From Caprimulgus europaeus (lineage: Eukaryota > Chordata > Aves > Caprimulgiformes > Caprimulgidae): a stretch of DNA of 64,000 nucleotides. The stretch covers positions 51,035,537-51,099,536 of the forward strand of contig OU015525.1 in assembly GCA_907165065.1 (NCBI GenBank), written 5' to 3'. The notes beneath the pieces are model-generated. The model had not been told where the DNA came from. It did not search any database and saw only the letters and a list, made by a program, of their open reading frames with translations. A program made the position numbers and the translations under genes. This document shows positions 30,720 through 63,863 of the stretch, piece after piece; positions within the stretch are counted from its first letter, which is position 1; each line of letters starts with the position of its first letter.

Positions 30720-38875
<8,156 letters not shown>

Positions 38876-42520: not shown

Positions 42521-42589
42521 GCTTTCAGGTACTGGAATACAATCAAATTTTATCAAGTGCTGGACTAATTCACAAAGATGCCCAAGTCC
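42521..42589 (-). pseudogene. ENOSF1: ENOSF1 remnant exon (GLGHLCELVQHLIKFD)
   Basis: The frame reads GLGHLCELVQHLIKFDCIPV then PES, against mammalian GVGLCELVQHLIIFDYISVS. One His codon is inserted. Directly upstream the expected PVCPHAGG reads V-F-P-stop-C, so the catalytic-site motif is destroyed. The terminal SLENR is not kept. It lies only about 180 bp from the previous exon. Confidence 0.75.
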
Positions 42590-42800
42590 ACACTAGGGAA
42601 AGACAGTGCCCGATACCATGACACTGAAGCTCTTTGATGCACTCCTACAGCACGACATGAAACAGAGAAAATTACAGCAGTGCATGCAAGCTTATGCTCA
42701 GAAATCACAAGCACGACAGCTGAGGAAACTAACCAAGACTGGCTTGGAGGGTGGGGGGAGAAGCGTTTTCTCATTGCTGCTGCATTTTGCAGAGCCTTAC

Positions 42801-42930
42801 TGTGGGACTTTTTGGCTCTCAGCAGCACAGACAAGTTTTCATTCACACTTCCCAGCCTGCAGCTGTCAATTTGGAGATAACTCAAGGCCTTAGCTCTTCG
42901 AAGCTGTTTAAATACCACTCTGTTGTGGCA
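42801..42930 (-). pseudogene. ENOSF1: ENOSF1 exon with lost splice acceptor
   Basis: The frame reads CHNRVVFKQLRRAKALSYLQ, IDSCRLGSVNENLSVLLRAK and K, nearly identical to mammalian CHNRVIFKQLLQAKALQFLQ and following residues. The polypyrimidine tract is intact (TTTTTTTTTTCCCCTTAC) but ends in AC instead of AG directly before TGC; position 42,931 is the changed base. A GTAAGG donor follows at 42,795-42,800. Confidence 0.88.
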
Positions 42931-43114
42931 GTGTAAGGGGAAAAAAAAAAGTTAAGACCCACAGTCTCACAAATTAACATATTACAAGAGCTGCTGGCAA
43001 CTCATATAAAAACATTTGTATAGTGTCCTCCTGTGTGTCTCAAGAAATCCAAATTATTTTAATTACTCCATTTAAATGAGAGATCACATGAGAATTTGGA
43101 TGAAGTTCACAGAA

Positions 43115-44545
43115 CATAGAATCATATAATGGTTTGGGTTGGAAGGGACCTTTAAAGGTCATCAAGTCCAACCCCCCTGCAGTAAGCAAGGACACCTTCA
43201 ACTGGGTCAGGTTGCTCAGGGTCCTGTCCAATCTGACCTTGAATGTTTCCAGGGATGGGACTTCTACCACTTCACTGAGCAACCTGTTCCTGTGTCTCAC
43301 CACCCTCACCATAAAAAGTTTCTTCCTTATACCTAGTCTAATTCTACCCTCTTTCAGTTTAAAACCATTGCCCTTTGTCCTGTTACTACAGACCCTGCTA
43401 AAAAGTTTGTTCCCATCTTTCTTACAGGCCCCCTTTAAGTACTGGAAGGCCACAATAAGGTCTCCCCCAGAGCCTTCTCTTCTCCAGGCTGAACAACCCC
43501 AACTCACTCAGTTTCTCTTCATAGGAGAGGTGCTCCAGCCCTCTGATCAGTTTTGTGGCCTCCTCTGGACCTGCTCCATCAGGTCCACATCTTTCTTGTA
43601 TGGAGGGCTCCAGAGCTGGAAGCAGTACTCCAGGTGGGGTCTCACCAGAGCAGAGTAGAGGGCAGAATCACTTCCCTCAACCTGCTGGCCCCGCTTCTTT
43701 TGGTGCAGCCCAGGATATGGTTGGCCTTCTGGGCTGCGAGTACACATGGCCAGCTCATGGCCAGCTTTCTGTCCACCAGTACCCCCAAGTCCTTCTCTGC
43801 AGGGCTGCTCCAAATTCTTTCATCCCCCAGCTTATATTGATACTGAGGGTTGCCCCAACCCAGGTGCAGGACCTTGCACTTGGCCTTGTTGAACCTCATG
43901 AGGTTCATATGGGCCCACTTCTCGAGCTTGTCCAGGTCCCTCTGGATGGCATCCCGTCCCTCAGGCATATCAACTACACCACTCAGCTTTGGTGTCATCT
44001 GCAGACTTGCTGAGTGCACTCTATTTCACTATGTATGTCACTGATGAAGATGTTAAACAGTACTGGTCCCGGTATGGACCCCTAAGGGACACCACTTGTC
44101 ACTAATCTCCATCTGGACATTGATCCATTGATCACTACCCTCTGGATGCGACCATCCAGCCAATTCCTTATCCACCGAACAGTTCACCCATCAAATCCAT
44201 ATCTCTCCAATTTAGAGAGAAGGATGTTGGGAGTACCAACATGTCAAAAGCCTTACAGAAGTCCAGATAGATGACACCTGTAGCCCTTCCCTTGTCCACT
44301 GATGTAGTCACTCCATCATAAAAGGACACTTGGTTGGTCAGGCAGGACTTGCTCTTGGTGAAGCTGTGCTGGTTGTCCCAAATCACCTCCCTGTTCTCTA
44401 TGTGCCTTAGCACAGCTTCTAGGAGGATCTGTTCCATGATCTTCCCAGCCTCACAGAAGTGAGGCTGACAGGTCAGTAGCTCCCAGGGTCATCATTTCCA
44501 CCCTTTTTAAAAAATGGGTGCAATGTGTCCCATTTTCCAGTTCAA
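43115..44545 (-). mobile_element. CR1 LINE, 1.4 kb with reverse-transcriptase remnant
   Basis: The plus strand opens with CATAGAATCATATAATGG, the reverse complement of the CR1 3' terminus, and runs 1.4 kb to a 5' truncation. On the minus strand a frame at 44,168-44,437 keeps reverse-transcriptase phrases such as [12 protein letters not shown] (the FDxV region) and [11 protein letters not shown] second frame at 43,642-44,019 has [20 protein letters not shown], the conserved CR1 C-terminal part. Frames are interrupted, so it is dead. It sits inside an intron of the ENOSF1 pseudogene. Confidence 0.95.
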
Positions 44546-45931
44546 GGATGTTGCCAATAATAAAAATATCAATTTATACTTGTAATGTCAACAGCACTAC
44601 ACCTGACACAATGAACTGAAGGTACACTGAAAAAAAATCATTGTGTGCCAAAGGGCATGGTTGTCCTGGAATGAGTTTGGAAATTACTGCCCCTTAACTG
44701 GATGTTGAACCACGTAAGTGGAAGTGAAGTGAAGTGAAAATGCCAAGTGAAAATGGCTCTTCTATTCCAGGACAAGGACAGGGGCTTAACCTATGCAAAG
44801 GCATCTGAGTTTGTAGTGAAACTATTATGTCATGCTTACACAAACTGCTTGGGAAGCTCTGCCAGATAATTGCCTCACAGACTGCCTCAAAATCATTTTA
44901 GGATTTAGGTTCCTGTAGGAGCCAATTCACTCCCCTCTGCTCACCCAACCGTGTCCCCAGGCAGGGACTTTGGGTGCACTGAGGACTGGACTGTTTTAAC
45001 CCCACTTCAGCATGTTCAGGACTGCCCCAGCTTTGGATGTGCCGGCCCACATGAATGAGCAGCTATTCCCACAGCTAAAGTGAATATAGCAGTGATTCTG
45101 CTGTAGGAAATAATTTCTTCTTCTGGAGACCAGCCTAGCTAGATGAAAGCTGGCCTTGCAGACAAGATATGCTTGGATAACAGTCAGGATCCAATTTCTA
45201 GCTGTGCTACAGATTTCCTGTCTAGAGCTTGGCTAAGTTGTTCAGCCAGTTCAAGCGTCACATTAATTTCTCATATTTGTAGTATGGATAATAGCACTGC
45301 CTTTATTCGCAACGGGATTCTGTGGATAATACATTAAATGCTTATGCAGTTCTCAGATGTTATGGGGAAAGGAAGAAAAAGGTTATACAAACCAGCAAGT
45401 AAAGCCAGTATTCAAGACTGGCCTTTACTTTGTAAAGCAAGGCCATACTAATGAGTAATTAAAACCCATCCTAATAGTTGTTCATTATAAAACACCCCCT
45501 CCCCAAATTAAGTGTCCTACTGGTAGACAACAGCTGAGAGCAAGAAGCACAATTAAATATGTTGATAGCAGGGCTTGGCAGGAGAAATGGTCAGCAAAGA
45601 GACTATGCTGATACAGTCACTGTTGTCTCCAGCTGCTGCAGAGAACCGAGAATTTGTTAATTCACATCGTTTGGCTCCGTAGATTTGGAGTCAAGACTTG
45701 GCAAAAAGATGGGTGCAATAAAAAACAATTTACTTTAGGTTGGAGATTGGTATTCTAAAAGGTACCAGCCTGTCTATTTGATGTACAGCAAAACACAGAA
45801 TTTTCTACCAAGTGGGATCCTGTTTCACAATATAACCAGCCCATTACCTTTAGCTTGTGCAAGTCCAGTTACTCTGTATAAACTGTGCACACCTTACCAA
45901 TGACTATGCCCTTGAAGAGGAGCTAAAAGGC
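44546..45931. other. ENOSF1-pseudogene intronic DNA, nothing recognised
   Basis: No exon match. The small ENOSF1 exon holding the third metal ligand (GIATGEQ) should lie between 42.9 and 49.2 kb, but I found no trace of it here or nearby. Confidence 0.45.
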
Positions 45932-46362
45932 TGTTAAAAGGAGAACATCCTGCCCCAGAAGGCAGCAAAAGCTGGATGATTGTCCAAGAAGGATGAAGTC
46001 AGCAAGAATCTGCAGTAACTGGGGGAAAGGTAAATGCGTCAGGGGGAAATCGGGACCACCGACTCAATTAGAGACTGAATGGACTTACCCCCCTCCTGTA
46101 CTAGAGCACACACTGTGAATTCTTTGTGTGTTGCACTCTTACAAGGTAAGGGAACCAAGTATGAGCCAGTCATAAAGTAGAACAGTCATGCACAGGTATA
46201 GTGGGTGGAACAAGCTCATCAGTTATGTATAAATGTGTGAAGTTTTGCAAACTCGCTGTGCTGGCTTTGTGGAATAGCACCTAGAGCCCGTATCTGTGCA
46301 AATATCGTCTCTGTGTATATTGGCATCTGCACACTGGGTAAATGACCTGCTTTGGGACAACA
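45932..46362 (+). mobile_element. possible solo LTR of an endogenous retrovirus
   Basis: The 431 bp segment begins TGTT and ends AACA (inverted termini). It contains a TATA-like TATAAAT at 46,228 and a downstream GGCATCTGCACACTGGGTAA segment that resembles avian retroviral LTR 3' ends. I see no clear flanking duplication (AAGGC before, CTGAC after), primer-binding site or internal gene, so it would be a solo LTR or fragment. Boundaries are tentative. Confidence 0.4.
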
Positions 46363-46539
46363 CTGACACCTCACTATTCATGATATATCCGGGAACTGGT
46401 TCTGGTCTTTGGACTCATTAAAAATTTTTCATGTGAAAATTATTTAAATACAGCTGGTGGTAGTGACTTACTACTGCTAGCAATGAGTTTCCTGAGGGAA
46501 AGGAAAGGTTTCAACCTTATAACATAGCTGCATACATAC

Positions 46540-47825
46540 CAGCCAGATTCCTGCTAAGGCCAGACAGGGCACTGAGCGCACTGGCAGGCCTCATCCTGAC
46601 CAGTCTCACTGGGAGCCCACACCCTCTGCCCACGGGCCTTCATTTCTGCCTGGGCTGCATTGCAGGTCTACCTGCTTCCAGCAGTGGTACAGCTGTGGAC
46701 ACGTCTGGCCATGGACCAACACCCTGGCCTGGCCTATGACCATGGCCCTGCTCTGTCATGGCCCTGCCCAGACACTCCCTGGGCTGTGTCTGACCTTGGT
46801 CCTGACCTGAACCCCACTTGCACTGCTGGCCTGCCTGGCTGGGCTCAGCCCATCCTTGTCCCCAGGGAAATGCCCAGTGCTTGGGACTGGAGCTACCTCA
46901 CTGGCCCCACTGACCCTGCTCCTGACTGGGGGTGGGATGGGGCTGGCTGGGAGGCCTCTGCCCTGCTGCCCCATGGGGACCCCCCACAGCACCCACTCCA
47001 TAGAGCTCGGCCCACAGCTGCATGAGGCTTTGCCCTACAAACCTAGCCTGGCTCTGGGCTCTGACCCTCCCACAGCACTGGCCCCTGCCTAAACTTCAGG
47101 TTTCTGGGGTCTTCAGGGCTCTTCAGGGGCCGTCTAAGAATGCCCTCTTTGCCCCCCAGTAAGGCTGTCAAGCCTCTGGGGCTACTCGGAGTCTGCCTGA
47201 GCCCCCCCACCTGGCTGCAATCCCCCTGCCATGTCCCTTTCCCATTTCCCTGTCCCTGCCCTGGTCCTGTGTCTCCTGAAGTGCCCCCTACACCCCACAG
47301 CCGTTAAATCACTCTTCAGCAAGTCCCACCTGAGCCCAGATCTCTGTCAGATCGGAGGACACATCCCTCCAGGCAGGGGGGGGCTGCGATGGCAGGAGTG
47401 GCCTTGCTGGCCCTGTCCAGCCTCACCGGAGGTCTCCATGCCTGCCCTCGGGACCCACCTCAACTCAGGCCAGAGTCCCCAGGCCCTGTCAGGGGACACC
47501 CCCAGGTGTGAGCATCTCCTGTCACATTGAAGCTGTGCCAGCCATAGACCTTGCTGGTCTGGACCCTGAATGGCAGGCTGATGGCCCAGCTCAACCTGAG
47601 TATGGCTACATCACCATGGATGGGCTGGCAGCTGCTGGGCTGTATCTGACCCTGGTCCCTGTCACTGGGACAGACCCTGCCCTCAGAGCTGTCTCCTCAC
47701 CGTGACCTTGTCTGGCTGACCCTGGCTGCCGCCACTAGATCTGCTCTGCCAGCCCTGCTATCGGCTCCTGGCTCCCCAGCCCTCCCTGCACCCTGACCAT
47801 GCCCTTCACGCCACCGAGAGGATGA
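46540..47825. repeat. C-rich, strand-asymmetric block of unknown origin
   Basis: About 1.3 kb is rich in CCTGCCC, CTGGCC and CCCTGAC words, with far more C than G on the plus strand. It stands out abruptly from AT-rich flanks and lacks the CpG density of a CpG island. It may be a dispersed GC-rich repeat or internal part of a retroelement linked to the LTR-like segment just upstream. Open frames within it look like composition effects. Confidence 0.5.
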
Positions 47826-49243
47826 ACTACAGCTTGCTAACAGCATGATTTTCTTGGATTTGATCTTTACAGTTGAGTTAGTGCGGCACAAACAGAGGTG
47901 ATAGAAGAGGAGCCAGGAACCTCTCCACTCTAAAAAAACACTCCTTCATACAGCCATTGCAAGGTCATGTCTACACATGCACAGCTGCGCTGAGCACAAC
48001 AGTCACTTAAGCACCAAACCCACAGAGCAAGATGGGAGCTGTAGTAATTTTCCTTTGGCTACAGGGGATATCAGCTTCAGCAGCCCTGCAGCTCTCTACA
48101 GACCGCAGTGTCCAGCCTACACTGTTCCGCACAGATGTTATCCAAGTTGTCTCATGGAGCTGCAGTGTGCTCCACGGAGCAGCATGAACTTACTCTTTGT
48201 ACCTTGCTTCTCTACCTTTCCTTTGGGCAATCACAATCATGGATGCCTTCTTTTATATTTATCACTGATATGAGAAGATGAAATTTTAGCAGTTACTCTT
48301 TTATAATAATAAAAAAATCAGATATTTCCAGGTTGTTCACAAAAATTACGTGTGGGAAGAATGAACCAGGGAAATAAGGTGAAGGGAGGCAACCTTGGTA
48401 GGGAACAGCTGAAATAGATACCAATTAATTTCCAGCTGTAGTATTTAAGTTTAGTGAGAAATGCAAAGGAATTTTGTCACCAGCTCCAAAGGTTATGCAG
48501 TAGTTGCATTAAACAAGTAGTAATTAGGAAAAAGGCACTTATACATATCTCACATGTTCTCTAGTTGCCACACTAATTCCTAGCAATGCTAAGGCCTGCA
48601 AGGACGTAACAAACGTTCAAGACTTGCTTCTGTTTTTTAATTTCCAAGAGTTACTCGGTAGCATAAAGGATGTAATAACAGTTGATTCAGCATATTGTTT
48701 TCTACTCATTTTATAGAAAATGTAATACATGCTGTAAAACTTCTTATTGATTTTTTCCCTGCTTTCTCTGCTCCACAAGCAATTTAAAGATTTACATGGC
48801 AGGGTATGTGGAGCAGTAAAGAAATGCACATCCTGTACATCTGGGGTTTTAACAGTGCTGCTAAGTATAGTGTGTTGGGAGCACACATTCTCAACTGAAC
48901 TTCCAATTTCACTGGAAACCACACATTTTAAAAAAAGTTCATTCACATTTCATACTAAATGTTGGCTGTCTTCCACATGCAGGCATTACAGTCCTTTTAA
49001 GTATTTTTTTTAGAAACAAACTATTTAAACTTAAAGGAATACAGATGCAGAATGTGTGTCAAGGTCCTGTAGCAAATACGTTTAGTGATACTCTGAATAA
49101 CTAGTTCAACAAGAACTCTGAATATGTGAAGGAACAGTATCAACATTACACTATGGTACTGACTGGAGTCACTGTATTATTACTGAAATTAAAAAAACCC
49201 AACAAAATAACTCTCCAACCTTTGAAATGGTTGCATATCCCAC
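47826..49243. other. ENOSF1-pseudogene intronic DNA, nothing recognised
   Basis: AT-rich DNA between the C-rich block and the DANQ exon. The 109-codon minus-strand frame at 48,617-48,946 matches no family I know. Confidence 0.5.
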
Positions 49244-49365
49244 CTGGACATGCATATCTCATCTGGAAAAGTCGGTTCCTTAATGCACAAGGGTGTAAAC
49301 TCAGCTGGGTTAGTGACCCACTCTATTGCTTCCTTTATTTCCCATTGTTGGTTTGCATCCAGCAT
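49244..49365 (-). pseudogene. ENOSF1: ENOSF1 exon with metal-ligand loss and altered length
   Basis: Acceptor TATCCCCAG, donor-like CCAG|GTGGGA. It encodes MLDANQQWEIKEAIEWVTNP, AEFTPL and CIKEPTFPDE. The family motif is MMDANQRW ... LWIEEPTSPDD. The first Glu of EEP, a Mg2+ ligand, is Lys here and the preceding Trp is Cys. The exon is 122 nt, about 13 nt shorter than I expect for the mammalian exon, with the loss after PDE, so the frame into the next exon is broken. Confidence 0.82.
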
Positions 49366-51866
49366 CTGGGGATATGGAAAATAAGAATCAGATACCCTCA
49401 AGGATCTGTTGACTTTTTTTGTCAAACTCTCATAAAAAGAGCTGCAAAACTGATATGAAGTGGTAGAAATTCATGAAATAGAAAGGAAATGAAAAGCTGG
49501 AATTGTCATTCTGCCTATATTGTACTTTTGGGCACCCTTACACTGAGTTGCAATGACTACAGCAATATCCAGACTAGCTTTGAACCAAGCAGATCACGAG
49601 CTGTAGGAAGCAGAGCAGTTTTCCATGGGAATAAGTATATCTTGGCAGCATATATGTGAGTAAAGCACCTAAAACATGGACATGGCTGCCTGAAATATTC
49701 TTGATGAAAAAATGCAATAGTTTAAATAAGATGAGTTTCTCAAGCAGCACTTCTCTCCCACACAAGGGAGAATTTTTCTCCCTACAAAAGTGAAATATCT
49801 GAAAATAACACCACAGTTCCTCTGCAGGCTCTTCAGGTCCTTGCCATCCTGTATTCAGAGTTCCTGGTTCTCATGATATATGGGATCCCATGAAAGCTCG
49901 GTGCTGCGCTGCAGCACCCAGAGTAGGTCCACAGCTGTGGCATGCCAGGGAACACATGGGGCAAAGGATCTAGTCCATAGCAGTCAAGAGAGTAAAATTT
50001 CCAAATCAAAATGTCTCACTTCCACCTAATTATTGCTTTTCATTCAAATATTTTAGTTTGAAAAACTTATTTTCTGGTTTATTTTTGGCCAAACATCAGT
50101 GAAAAAATATTAACAGGCTTTACTGTGGAAGCCTCCGTGGATATAAAAGTCACTTTAAATCTTCTAGAAGACAATCCTGGAAGTGGGGTTCCCCCACAGA
50201 CTTGAATGGAAGTTCTGGCACAGAATACAGGATAACATTCTCAGTAATACATCTACTTTGGTCACATCCAATACTGCTCTTTGTTGATATTTATCAAAAT
50301 TTGTTGCCATCATTATTCGGGATTTGAAGAAGGAGGAAAAAATATCTGTTAAAAAATGTATATAATGAGATATTTCATCTAATGTTTTTAGATGGAAAAT
50401 AACATAGTACAGTATCAAAAAGTGATATTCACCATTACTTTGTCTGGGCTGATCATTTCTCATGTAAATTTGCATCTGCAAATGTCATCCTGCAGATCTG
50501 CACTCTCCTTTACTTTGAACCTAGATGCTTATTTGGAACAAGATATAGATGACTTCTGAATGATTAATGCAGCAGTAAACAAATCCATAAACTAGAATTT
50601 ACAATTTCAGCATCACTGTCTTACAAAAAGAACTTTCTTATTACTTCTCTTCCCTTGTGAGTAAGCTTCATCCTACTCTAAAAATAAAACAGCAATGTAT
50701 TTTCATAAATCAATGGAAACATTTATCTTAATTTGTGATCAGCCCTCAGCTTTGCCATACCATTACTGTTTTCCTGCAATGCAGCATTATGCAGTAGTAG
50801 AAGGGGAAATTGGCTGAGAGAGATACAGAAGCAGTCATCACTGCTCATGTCATAGACCTGGAGGAGTTAGACTAGGTCTAGTCCATCTGTTTAAAGTACA
50901 AGGAACAGAAGAATAACACTCAAGACAAGTGTTCAACTTGTCCAGCCTTCTCTCAAGGCCTTTGTGTGTTAACCGCAAGCAAAGTTACATCAATTATACA
51001 TCTCCAAATAACTCGACCACACTGCACCTAGAATAACATTAATTTACACATTTTCAAAATAAGAAGCAGCTTTTTATTTCTTCCTAGGAGTTAGCAGAAA
51101 AACATCAGAAAATGAGATTAGAGATATGAATAACATCCAGCTGAACTAAACCCCTCAACTCAGCTAACATATGATAAATTTTTCTAATCCAGGTATAAAC
51201 GTGACTCGACAACACTGTTTCTAGATATACCAAGGCATATATTCCCAGATGATAAATCTCAGCTGTATTAATAAATGTGACACCAATAAACTGTCCAAAG
51301 CTTTTACAATATTTCAAAGAAAGCCAAGCACGTGCATATCTCTCTGGCAATAAGGATGCTGCTTTACAAAGGAAGCAAAGGGCCCTTGGCTGCTGTGTTT
51401 TCAGAGTATCCCTCAAAACCAAGGCAACCAGGAGTTCTAGAAGAAACCAGCCACTATCAAACCTCTGAGGTTCATGTTGTCTGTGGTGGAGACATCCCCA
51501 TTTCTCATCTATGAAGTTACTGCAGCTTAAGGAAACTGTGCTTCTGAACATAGCTATCCAAACACAGATTTTATTTGTTTTCATTAATACTCTTAATGAT
51601 CACACTTTTGGTTAATTCACATTGCTCTCCTGAGTATCCTTATGTGCATAAGCTCCTTGCTTAAACCAACACAGCTAGACCTGTGCAAACTCGCTGTTAT
51701 ACAAAATATACCAACATAAAGAGACATCAATTTCTACCTTAATACGTTGTTCTCAATACTCATATTCCTTGGGTGTATCCTTGATGGTAGACAGGGCTGT
51801 AACACTCTGTCTTACTGGGAAAATTATTTAAATGGTATTGGGCCTGCTTTTTACCTCCCAAAATGG
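49366..51866. other. ENOSF1-pseudogene intronic DNA with one long open frame
   Basis: No further exon is recognised. The stretch includes a 159-codon minus-strand open frame (51,105-51,584) that is long for AT-rich noncoding DNA but resembles nothing I know and lacks splice context. Confidence 0.45.
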
Positions 51867-51923
51867 ATCTGCAAAGTTACGTTTTCACTCGGTCCAGCAA
51901 AACTTCAAAGTGTTTAGGAGCAA
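51867..51923 (-). pseudogene. ENOSF1: ENOSF1 remnant exon with in-frame stop at Lys-x-Lys
   Basis: The frame reads LLLNTLKFCWTE, stop, KRNFAD, against mammalian LCAQALKDGWTRFKVKVGAD. TGA at 51,885-51,887 lies just before the catalytic Lys-x-Lys, which is no longer present. No AG precedes the expected first codon (the plus-strand neighbourhood gives TTTTCACTGC on the minus strand), so the acceptor is lost too. Confidence 0.65.
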
Positions 51924-52008
51924 GCAGTGAAAATTAATCATAATGTTAGCATTTTCCCACTTCACATACCATTTTAAATCTTACTATTACAGGAGAGAAC
52001 ATTCAAAC

Positions 52009-52091
52009 CTGTTTTAACTGTTGGTCTGAATAGCCCAGCCAGGCACAAGATCTTGTATAAGCCAGATATCTATGCTTCAACATTTGCTGTT
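52009..52091 (-). pseudogene. ENOSF1: ENOSF1 exon, frame and splice sites intact
   Basis: Acceptor ACCTGCTTCAG, donor ACAG|GTTTGA, 83 nt. It encodes QQMLKHRYLAYTRSCAWLGY and SDQQLKQ, against mammalian KQMLAQGYPAYTTSCAWLGY and SDDTLKQ. Phase 1 in and phase 0 out fit the preceding exon. This is the best-preserved segment and makes the family identification firm. Confidence 0.9.
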
Positions 52092-52378
52092 CTGAAGCAG
52101 GTGAGGACAGTTTCAAGTCAGGCTATGTTTTAGTCAACAGAGGATTATTTTGTTAAATAGTGCATCAAAGCATGTTCTTTGGGGAAACTGGAGGATTGGA
52201 GGTGTTTTGCCTTCTTTTTTTCCTTGAAAGCCATAATTTTAATCAAACAGATCAATTTTGCTGAATAAGCCTTTCCCTCTTCTCCCTAGCTATTTCATAG
52301 CAAGAGAACTGCAAAACAGATAAATACTTGAAAGCAGCAGAGAACAGCACAATCCCCTTGCTAACCCAACACAAAGAG

Positions 52379-52384
<6 letters not shown>

Positions 52385-52435
<51 letters not shown>
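52385..52435. repeat. (AT)n microsatellite, about 25 units
   Basis: An uninterrupted AT dinucleotide run of 51 bp lies between two ENOSF1 remnant exons. It is likely to vary in length between individuals. Confidence 0.97.
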
Positions 52436-52440
<5 letters not shown>

Positions 52441-52846
52441 ACCAATGTAGCACAAACCGAATGTCTGACTGCACTCCTGGAACACGTGAGGAGATGCTAG
52501 CATCACCAGGCTTCATCTCACACTATCCCCTTCCCATTCTTTAAGAGATGCAGAGTAATGGTTTTCATCAGGTACACGTCCATTTAAGCTCACCGCTTTC
52601 CTTTTTCCCAAGCAGGCCATTTTGTAGTATTTCTGGAGGGGAACAAGCATAAATAGCAAGTTACACTGAACAATAACTTCTCACCCTCCAGATTCCATCA
52701 TTACAGTTGTCTCTCCAACCTGTCTTGGTCTTACAGGCTGGATGTATATTCCTGAGTGAGCTACTCCCACCAAAACTGATGAGACAACTCATGGACTGGG
52801 AAGATGGAGGGTACTGAAGTCCAGCTTTGAAGGAGAGAAGGCTTAC

Positions 52847-52919
52847 CATAAGATTCTTCATCTGTTAGCACATCAGTAATATTTCTGACATCCACACAGA
52901 ATAGCAATTGTTTGGCATC
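52847..52919 (-). pseudogene. ENOSF1: ENOSF1 exon, frame and splice sites intact
   Basis: Acceptor ATGAATCAG, donor TATG|GTAAGC. It encodes DAKQLLFCVDVRNITDVLTD then EESY, against mammalian DPRMLVSCIDFRYITDVLTE then EDALE, so one codon is missing. It ends in phase 1, compatible with the next exon. It belongs to the beta/alpha-barrel start of the enolase-type protein. Confidence 0.85.
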
Positions 52920-53510
52920 CTGATTCATGGATGACATATAAAATAAAAAGGCATAGCATAATAAAACAGTATGATGAAAAAAAGAGTAAGTAATGCTAGT
53001 CACCTGAGGAATGGCTGTCGATCTTCCCCCCATTTCCCTGAAGCAAGCAGGGAGTTCAGATATTCTAAACAGCAGATATTCTAAACCTTCCTCCTCAATC
53101 ACCTCATCAGCCTGTGTTGCACTGCCAAACGTGTGTGTGCCTAATTTCATAGCTGTGAGTAGTTGATAATAAGACCTTCTGAGTTTCTTTTTAAACTGTC
53201 TCCAAGCTGGAGTAAAAAATTAAACAGGAAAGCCAAGTCACACTTTTCAGCTGTCAAATTATGACAGAGAAGCATCCCTGTTGTCACACCTCCTGCTGTC
53301 AAGAAAGGAAAAAACAGGTTATTTTAGAACAGGCTCTTTTAGAGTTCAATACTGAATAGAATTCCCCCCAAATGACTGATCACTTCATCAAACAGATCAA
53401 CACACAAGGCCCAAACATTTGCTAGCAGACAACGGTAGCATATGCAGTTCAATTACTGAGTTGTTAGTTTTCAGTAAGGAGTTATTTTTGGGAAAGACCC
53501 CCCAGCAATT

Positions 53511-53527
53511 AAAAAAAAAAAAAAAAA
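53511..53527. repeat. poly(A) run
   Basis: An A-run of about 17 bp lies directly beside the weak ENOSF1 remnant at 53,536. On the minus strand it is a T run after the remnant's stop. Confidence 0.75.
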
Positions 53528-53535
53528 GCCTCTGA

Positions 53536-53586
53536 TTATCCAGACTTAAAGAAAGGCAGTTCCTTGTCCAAATCATAAACAAAGAC
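53536..53586 (-). pseudogene. ENOSF1: weak ENOSF1 remnant (VYDL-K-E...P-FFK)
   Basis: A TTTGTAG acceptor-like site precedes VFVYDLDKELPFFKSG and a stop TAA (53,536-53,538). It resembles mammalian AVWDLWAKQEGKPVWKLL only with three single-residue gaps. It is supported mainly by lying in the correct order between clearer remnants. Confidence 0.35.
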
Positions 53587-53818
53587 CTACAAATTAAAGC
53601 ACAATTTTTCAGTACACAACTTCCTGTTAGCAGTAGGCATCAGTTCTGGGGCTGCAATCTAGCATGGTTGTTTTGACTGTTCAACAACACACCTTGAACA
53701 TCTCTGTGAGTGGTGTGTTCCACAGTTGCTGGAGGAGCAGGGAGCCATCCTCACTGTTTTTATGATGAAGCAGTCTAAGTGACTAGATGTTCTCCTTATT
53801 TATGGCAGGAGTCATGCT

Positions 53819-53884
53819 GAACTGAGATATATCCTTTATTGTTTTTGAAAGAGCAGAAATGCTTCTTGACCCAGCAAATACAAC
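53819..53884 (-). pseudogene. ENOSF1: ENOSF1 remnant exon (VV-A...LSKTIKDI...F)
   Basis: The frame reads VVFAGSRSISALSKTIKDIS then QF, against mammalian VVCAVNALAHHVLNKDLKDI then VGDF. The match needs one residue deleted in each half. Beyond Phe the similarity ends, and the frame hits TAG at 53,783-53,785, before the exon should finish. A CCAG lies directly upstream as possible old acceptor. Confidence 0.55.

Positions 53885-59087: not shown

Positions 59088-63863
<4,776 letters not shown>

Follow-up and report, generated by a model that had tools for sequence, protein, structure and literature searches.

The window, by which we mean the whole 64,000-nucleotide stretch analysed here, carries a decayed ENOSF1 between TYMS and YES1. 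We put the probability that this is the orthologous gene, surviving as a unitary pseudogene at its original location, at about 0.9. Nine exons, which we labelled e7–e15 for this analysis, lie colinear on the minus strand from 52919 to 42521. A sequence-only reading of this DNA had proposed ENOSF1 segments in the right order and strand in this slot, and tblastn and shuffles place them there above chance, with both flanking genes located as it claimed. Its tally of seven clear or fair segments and one weak segment fell short of the nine exons found, which include e13 at 48595–48554. Its upper limit of 53884 is unsupported because we found nothing recognisable above 52919, the highest coordinate of e7. 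The features of the interval are as follows.

TYMS, 30771..38872, plus strand: human TYMS residues 29–313 match every coding exon; apparently intact.
YES1, 59091..63857, minus strand: 3' coding exons of an SRC-family kinase that we take to be YES1 from its locus, presumably the ENOSF1 neighbor in other animals as well; apparently intact, the gene extending beyond the window.
ENOSF1 e7, 52847..52919, minus strand: DAKQLLFCVDVRNITDVLTDEESY; frame open, AG acceptor and GT donor retained.
ENOSF1 e8, 52594..52632, minus strand: ILQNGLLGKKES; frame open, both splice sites retained.
ENOSF1 e9, 52009..52091, minus strand: QQMLKHRYLAYTRSCAWLGYSDQQLKQ; frame open, both splice sites retained, phase matching e8.
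ENOSF1 e10 remnant, 50937..50965, minus strand: TKALREGWT; donor TT, not GT, at 50936–50935; acceptor and 5' end unrecognisable.
ENOSF1 e11, 50433..50520, minus strand: FKVK...; both splice sites retained; in-frame TGA at 50462–50460.
ENOSF1 e12, 49220..49365, minus strand: both splice sites retained; 12-nt insertion common to birds.
ENOSF1 e13, 48554..48595, minus strand: ALALLGISVATREH; AG acceptor and GT donor retained.
LINE remnant, 43104..44488, minus strand: in the e13–e14 intron, with reverse-transcriptase-like ORFs; CR1-like, which we take to be its family.
ENOSF1 e14, 42801..42930, minus strand: CHNRVVFKQL...; frame open, GT donor retained; acceptor AC in place of AG at 42932–42931.
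ENOSF1 e15, 3' part, 42521..42592, minus strand: GLGHLCELVQHLIKFDCIPVPES.

Detection rested on several kinds of query. Echidna, turtle, and gecko ENOSF1, run as tblastn queries, gave a single chain of minus-strand pieces, in which e7, e9, e11, e12, e14, and e15 were each significant alone; e8 (E 0.07–0.33), e10 (E 9–13, from two of four queries), and e13 (E 7–15) are weak singly and are counted by position. A 17-sequence profile found six of the nine exons at E up to 0.0025 and e13 at E 28 only, missing e8 and e10. Exon-sized queries against the TYMS–YES1 interval exceeded the maximum of 40 shuffles in 9 of 15 cases, namely e7–e15, all ordered and on the minus strand. The remaining six (e1, e2, e3, e5, e6, and e16) did not exceed their maxima; e16 reached a score of 38 at best, below the 40 of its highest-scoring shuffle. 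The N-terminal capping-domain exons of the enzyme (e1, e2, e3, e5, and e6) are therefore not recognisable in the window, where neither reptile pieces nor stork and flamingo pieces of the N-terminal exons rose above background, and no ENOSF1 piece was recognised above 52919 by tblastn, profile, exon queries, or the stork and flamingo pieces. Exon e14 retains 90% identity to turtle ENOSF1. Rfam at gathering scores gave no matches in the window.

The reading frame is disabled by the TGA in e11, a frameshift in e12, the lost donor of e10, and the lost acceptor of e14. AG and GT borders are present at e7, e8, e9, e11, e12, and e13, but e11 carries the stop and e12, at 146 nt, is 1 nt shorter than we infer for the form that the birds share, which puts it out of frame. 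Open frames with both splice sites thus persist in four exons (e7, e8, e9, and e13), where two intact exons had been proposed. The active site is also damaged. Of the three acidic metal ligands, which we take to be Asp250, Glu276, and Glu305 (numbers that agree with the Anolis numbering used here), Asp250 and Glu305 are retained and Glu276 is replaced by Lys in e12 (codon AAG at 49281–49279). In e13, the Gly adjoining a metal-ligand Glu has become Arg (codon AGA at 48562–48560), and the PHAGG motif holding the catalytic His of L-fuconate dehydratase, expected on the 5' side of e15, was not found there. The stop, the missing His motif, and the missing metal ligand noticed earlier are all present; of the "lost acceptors," that of e14 was borne out.

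The remnants are separated by gaps of 208–5623 nt, and the introns kept between nine exons exclude a retrocopy of this gene as the source. Because introns, order, and syntenic slot are kept and no other copy was found in the 1.18 Gb assembly, we consider the locus a unitary pseudogene that decayed in place, as first proposed: the slot is ancestral, flanked by TYMS and YES1, and the gene is functional in relatives. A duplicate or retrocopy with a working gene elsewhere is very unlikely. GC-rich small chromosomes can escape assemblies, so such a gene could be unassembled, but echidna and crocodile ENOSF1, each searched against the whole genome (E up to 10, covering assembled, unmasked sequence), both matched it five times, always at the remnants in the window. 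The earlier reading had called for this search and had named alternative exons nearby as grounds for refutation; a search for such exons in both window and assembly found none. As a positive control, human BDH2 was recovered as nine colinear pieces (52–84% identity) within 10 kb of C4. Since the genome searches recovered just five of the nine known remnants, missing e8, e10, e13, and e15, a second copy equally decayed could escape detection. No intact bird ENOSF1 was among the matches listed in each of three protein searches (120 each). Among the 120 listed for the human and gecko queries, none carried a bird name, and 16 unnamed entries were nearest to amphibians or fish. That the gene is intact and its lesions are assembly or base-calling errors has a negligible probability. 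An error of this sort is conceivable in principle for a lesion of one base, the e12 frameshift for example. The damage to the active site, however, is repeated in gene models of four other bird genomes, and six exon queries are unmatched while the adjoining TYMS and YES1 pieces are clean.

Those models, from gull, king vulture, stork, and flamingo, form with the window a set of five birds. The metal-ligand Glu-to-Lys change, the Gly-to-Arg change beside another metal ligand, and the 12-nt insertion in e12 occur in all five; PHAGG is absent from the four birds with e15, the stork model stopping before that exon. Across e7–e13, 12 derived residues are common to all informative birds. Crocodilian ENOSF1 models retain IEEP, ATGEQ, and PHAGG, lizard proteins are full length, and turtle and crocodilian isoforms retain the active-site motifs. 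A tree built from 202 columns groups the four birds with the window (support 100); their stem branch measures 0.136, against 0.040 for the two-crocodilian stem, although long branches also occur outside birds, as in a turtle isoform (0.134). Together with the bird models, this grouping is our ground for taking the window to be bird DNA. The loss had been framed as that of a single bird lineage; the loss itself stands, and since its lesions are common to five birds it is older and wider than that.

Alternatively, some birds might make a shortened, catalytically dead protein with a new job, the gene being remodelled rather than dead. The gull model (P0159, 253 aa) bears no low-quality label and is open across e7–e15, and e14 is unusually well preserved: it has fared better than e7–e13 in all five birds, with 3/41 changes in the window against 33/143. 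Against such a pseudoenzyme stand the window's own e11 stop, e12 frameshift, and splice sites lost at e10 and e14, as well as the models themselves, of which three of four are named LOW QUALITY PROTEIN and all four contain pieces matching window introns. Where a model holds a whole intron piece (5 of 16 cells: 18/20, 17/18, 18/18, 17/19, and 9/10 alike), the match to the window is as good as for e14 (33/43, 36/43, 37/43, and 35/43 alike in the four models) or better. We therefore rejected functional constraint on e14 as weak: intron-derived pieces are equally alike between birds, the five birds do not count as independent cases, and it was a gene predictor that picked the models. On balance, the pseudoenzyme explanation is improbable, and the four bird entries named mitochondrial enolase superfamily member 1 look like gene predictions drawn across a relic.

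Returning to the decayed ortholog, the ENOSF1 enzyme was probably dead before the window bird, gull, king vulture, stork, and flamingo diverged, judging from active-site lesions common to these birds in motifs kept by crocodilians; its death probably fell early in bird history. The active site would already have been wrecked in the common ancestor of the window bird, gulls, New World vultures, storks, and flamingos, after which each lineage may have decayed independently. In the window lineage, this decay would have erased recognisable exons at both ends (e1–e6 and e16). We infer that the window bird lacks an L-fuconate dehydratase of the ENOSF1 family. The antisense partner of TYMS may have been lost as well, a suggestion with only indirect support from e16, the end nearest TYMS, which was not found.

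HSD17B14 is the first enzyme of oxidative L-fucose breakdown. All birds may have given up this pathway, with ENOSF1 dead before the neoavian radiation, HSD17B14 also gone, and BDH2 left, an extension that we offer as tentative. Human HSD17B14 matched only short-chain dehydrogenase pieces in the assembly (29–47% identity). An SDR gene at 18.22–18.24 Mb of C12, which we guess to correspond to chicken chromosome 12, was rejected as HSD17B14; its pieces are 25–49% identical to the human protein, and it looks like another SDR because BDH2 matches the same place at 27–49%. Table 1 of a 2020 survey (PMC7064643) lists no HSD17B14 for chicken, and PMC12747192 applies that name to a gene on chicken chromosome 12.

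ENOSF1 absence in chicken, zebra finch, and mouse has been published (PMC1261261, PMC3197473), and birds apparently lost the gene according to the 2011 paper (PMC3197473). Failed searches can mislead, because that paper found no ENOSF1 in pig, a pig protein being present among the matches listed for our protein search (P0027), and the 2005 paper (PMC1261261) mentions unpublished signs of a mouse protein. Judged by titles and abstract openings, the papers listed in our PMC searches include no description of this bird ENOSF1 relic, and the main text of PMC4290089 does not contain the name. ENOSF1 has a single mention, as a miRNA target, in a 2025 chicken paper (PMC12586055), and this counts against death of the gene.

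What we add is the relic itself and the lesions that it has in common with the other birds, five in all. An absence known from failed searches becomes an event whose lesions can be named and whose age has a lower bound, and L-fuconate dehydratase activity is predicted to be lacking in bird liver and kidney. Birds thereby offer a natural test of two questions: what purpose L-fucose degradation, a little-understood pathway, serves in vertebrates, and whether regulation of TYMS requires its antisense neighbor.

Primate GULO is a unitary pseudogene, and ENOSF1 resembles it in that both are metabolic genes with one copy, which decays in place, although gene and pathway differ. Compared with ENOSF1/rTS, the human L-fuconate dehydratase (PDB 4a35), the window relic has an identical exon order and likewise adjoins TYMS, as in the conserved TYMS–rTS pair (PMC1261261), but it lacks an intact frame, a metal ligand, the His motif, and recognisable e1–e6 and e16. 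The same gene is missing in birds in the earlier reports (PMC1261261, PMC3197473); those rest on failed searches, whereas here the relic is described and its lesions are shown to be common to five birds.

The sequence-only reading held that ENOSF1 has decayed in place between TYMS and YES1, and it proved right in substance. Pieces matching ENOSF1 from residue 139 to about 379 lie colinearly on the minus strand between the two genes. The flanking genes and the best preserved remnant are as follows, the five birds being the window together with protein models from a gull, a king vulture, a stork and a flamingo.

30771-38872, plus strand: TYMS coding pieces, no stops in the well-matched parts
63857-59091, minus strand: YES1 3' coding exons, no stops in the well-matched parts
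42930-42801, minus strand: ENOSF1 e14, the best preserved exon of any length in each of the five birds

The ENOSF1 protein was split into 15 exon-sized queries (e1 to e16, with no e4), with exon-skipping isoforms of turtles and snakes guiding where the borders were set. Each query was scored ungapped on the minus strand of 38873-59090 against 40 shuffles of the same interval. Nine of the 15 (e7 to e15) exceeded the shuffle maximum, all in order, the weakest being e13 (39 vs 32), e10 (40 vs 33) and e15 (64 vs 42); e1, e2, e3, e5, e6 and e16 did not exceed it in this interval. A profile recovered only six of the nine remnants at E up to 0.0025, and e8, e10 and e13 were not significant singly in tblastn. 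All three were accepted on their position in the chain, to which e8 and e13 add their splice borders. The intron between e13 and e14 holds a GC-rich block (46001-48000; GC 0.56 vs 0.39-0.46 in neighboring 2-kb bins) in which TRF found no tandem repeats, and an (AT)28 microsatellite lies between e8 and e9 (52379-52435).

Open frames with AG and GT borders persist in e7, e8, e9 and e13, and e7, e8 and e9 are still mutually in phase. The stop, lost acceptor, missing metal ligand and destroyed His motif described from the sequence alone were each located: an in-frame TGA at 50462-50460 in e11, whose borders are good; AC in place of AG at 42932-42931 before e14; Lys (AAG, 49281-49279) in place of the WIEEP ligand Glu in e12; and no PHAGG motif, which carries the catalytic His, at e15 of the window. 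The borders of e12 are also good, but at 146 nt against 147 in the shared bird form, a length inferred from protein models, it is out of frame. The donor of e10 is lost (TT at 50936-50935), with no recognizable acceptor, and in e13 Arg replaces the Gly adjoining a ligand Glu. Following the general pattern of the enolase superfamily, we take the WIEEP Glu, the TGE Glu and the PHAGG His to be the ligands and catalytic His; all three motifs are preserved in human ENOSF1 (4a35) and in the bacterial L-fuconate dehydratase 1yey.

Echidna and crocodile ENOSF1 served as queries in six-frame searches of the whole 1.18-Gb assembly, in which contig C3 contains the window. Up to E 10 each query matched at five places, namely the C3 remnants e7, e9, e11, e12 and e14. 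The proposed check for an intact gene elsewhere thus returned only window remnants, and no second copy was found by this search, which covers assembled sequence, scores only the best candidates and passed over four of the nine remnants known from the window. The positive control was human BDH2, which yielded nine colinear pieces (52-84% identity) within 10 kb of contig C4; therefore, the short exons of a functional gene can be detected at such divergence.

With the joined window exons as a protein query, four bird-named entries appeared among the best 120 of 4218 matches, each named mitochondrial enolase superfamily member 1 and each containing pieces that match introns of the locus.

Bird protein models matching the window exons
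Larus michahellis: P0159, 253 aa, not labelled low quality
Sarcoramphus papa: P0160, LOW QUALITY PROTEIN in source name
Ciconia maguari: P0175, LOW QUALITY PROTEIN in source name
Phoenicopterus ruber: P0178, LOW QUALITY PROTEIN in source name

Because of these intron matches, the entries appear to be gene predictions built on a pseudogene. Human and gecko ENOSF1 queries gave no bird-named rows among their best 120 matches each, and the 16 nameless rows in those listings have amphibians or fish as nearest relatives; the tally of bird proteins concerns the matches listed and is not a census, as 90%-identity clusters may hide members.

Comparison with other birds had been proposed for dating the disabling changes. 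In alignment with the window, Lys at the ligand Glu (IKEP), Arg for Gly in e13 and four added residues (MHVQ) in e12 occur in 5/5 birds, the last lying within the shifted frame in the window. PHAGG is missing from the window and from all three bird models covering e15 (the stork model ends earlier), absence from a gene model being weaker evidence than absence from DNA. Relative to five references, 12 derived residues in e7-e13 are common to all informative birds (four or five), and none in e14. Two crocodilian models, P0157 and P0158, represent isoforms without the beginning of the protein and preserve WIEEP, ATGEQ and PHAGG. Given the lesions common to the five birds, inactivation most likely predates the last common ancestor of the window bird and the gull, New World vulture, stork and flamingo; bird phylogeny puts this ancestor close to the root of Neoaves, roughly 65 million years back. 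In a tree of 202 columns the five birds group together (support 100); their stem measures 0.136 substitutions per site and that of the two crocodilians 0.040, as expected if constraint was lost on the bird stem. Nodes relating the reptile groups have low support (59-62), and a turtle isoform likewise sits on a long branch (0.134). Parts of e3 and e5 survive in both the stork and the flamingo model, and part of e6 in the former; none of these was found in the window, and the N-terminal exons were therefore lost later, in the window lineage.

Counting against a pseudogene, the gull model P0159 has an open frame and bears no low-quality label, and e14 is better kept than e7-e13. Between the window and all five references, 3 of 41 positions differ in e14 vs 33 of 143 in e7-e13 (Fisher p 0.026); pooling the five birds, wrongly treated as independent, gives 10/205 changed cells vs 85/645 private cells (p 0.0006). 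Where a bird model contains an intron piece whole, that piece resembles the window no less (18/20, 17/18, 18/18, 17/19 and 9/10) than e14 does (33/43, 36/43, 37/43 and 35/43), and we therefore read the pattern as neutral decay at a slow rate of divergence. The five intron cells come from a set of 16 and are the ones with the entire piece in the model; in nine the piece is absent, and in two it is present in part (flamingo 11/20, vulture 8/20). A chicken paper mentions ENOSF1 once, as a miRNA target, which may count against loss (PMC12586055). Two other papers report chicken and zebra finch without ENOSF1 (PMC1261261, PMC3197473). Such reports may mislead, because the 2011 paper (PMC3197473) found none in pig, yet pig protein P0027 is among the matches listed here.

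In mammals, according to one paper, L-fuconate dehydratase has been identified as ENOSF1 and L-fucose dehydrogenase as HSD17B14, BDH2 being a candidate for the next step (PMC13406643). BDH2 is present in the assembly (C4). Human HSD17B14 gave 19 matches there (29-47% identity), scattered over many contigs, which look like other short-chain dehydrogenases. Because the bird counterpart of the human HSD17B14 region is hard to assemble, absence of HSD17B14 from the assembly is a lead, not a result. One table of a 2020 survey gives chicken without hsd17b14 (PMC7064643), yet a 2025 paper calls a chicken chromosome 12 gene HSD17B14 (PMC12747192). Contig C12 carries, at 18224837-18241352 (loci L026-L028), a gene for a short-chain dehydrogenase with 25-49% identity to human HSD17B14; this gene, at 18.22-18.24 Mb, is possibly the counterpart of the chicken one.

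As an object it is of an ordinary kind: a unitary pseudogene, found in a lineage for which absence of ENOSF1 had been reported before. Newly added are the relic itself, the list of its lesions and the active-site lesions common to five birds, which place the enzyme's death far back in the history of birds.
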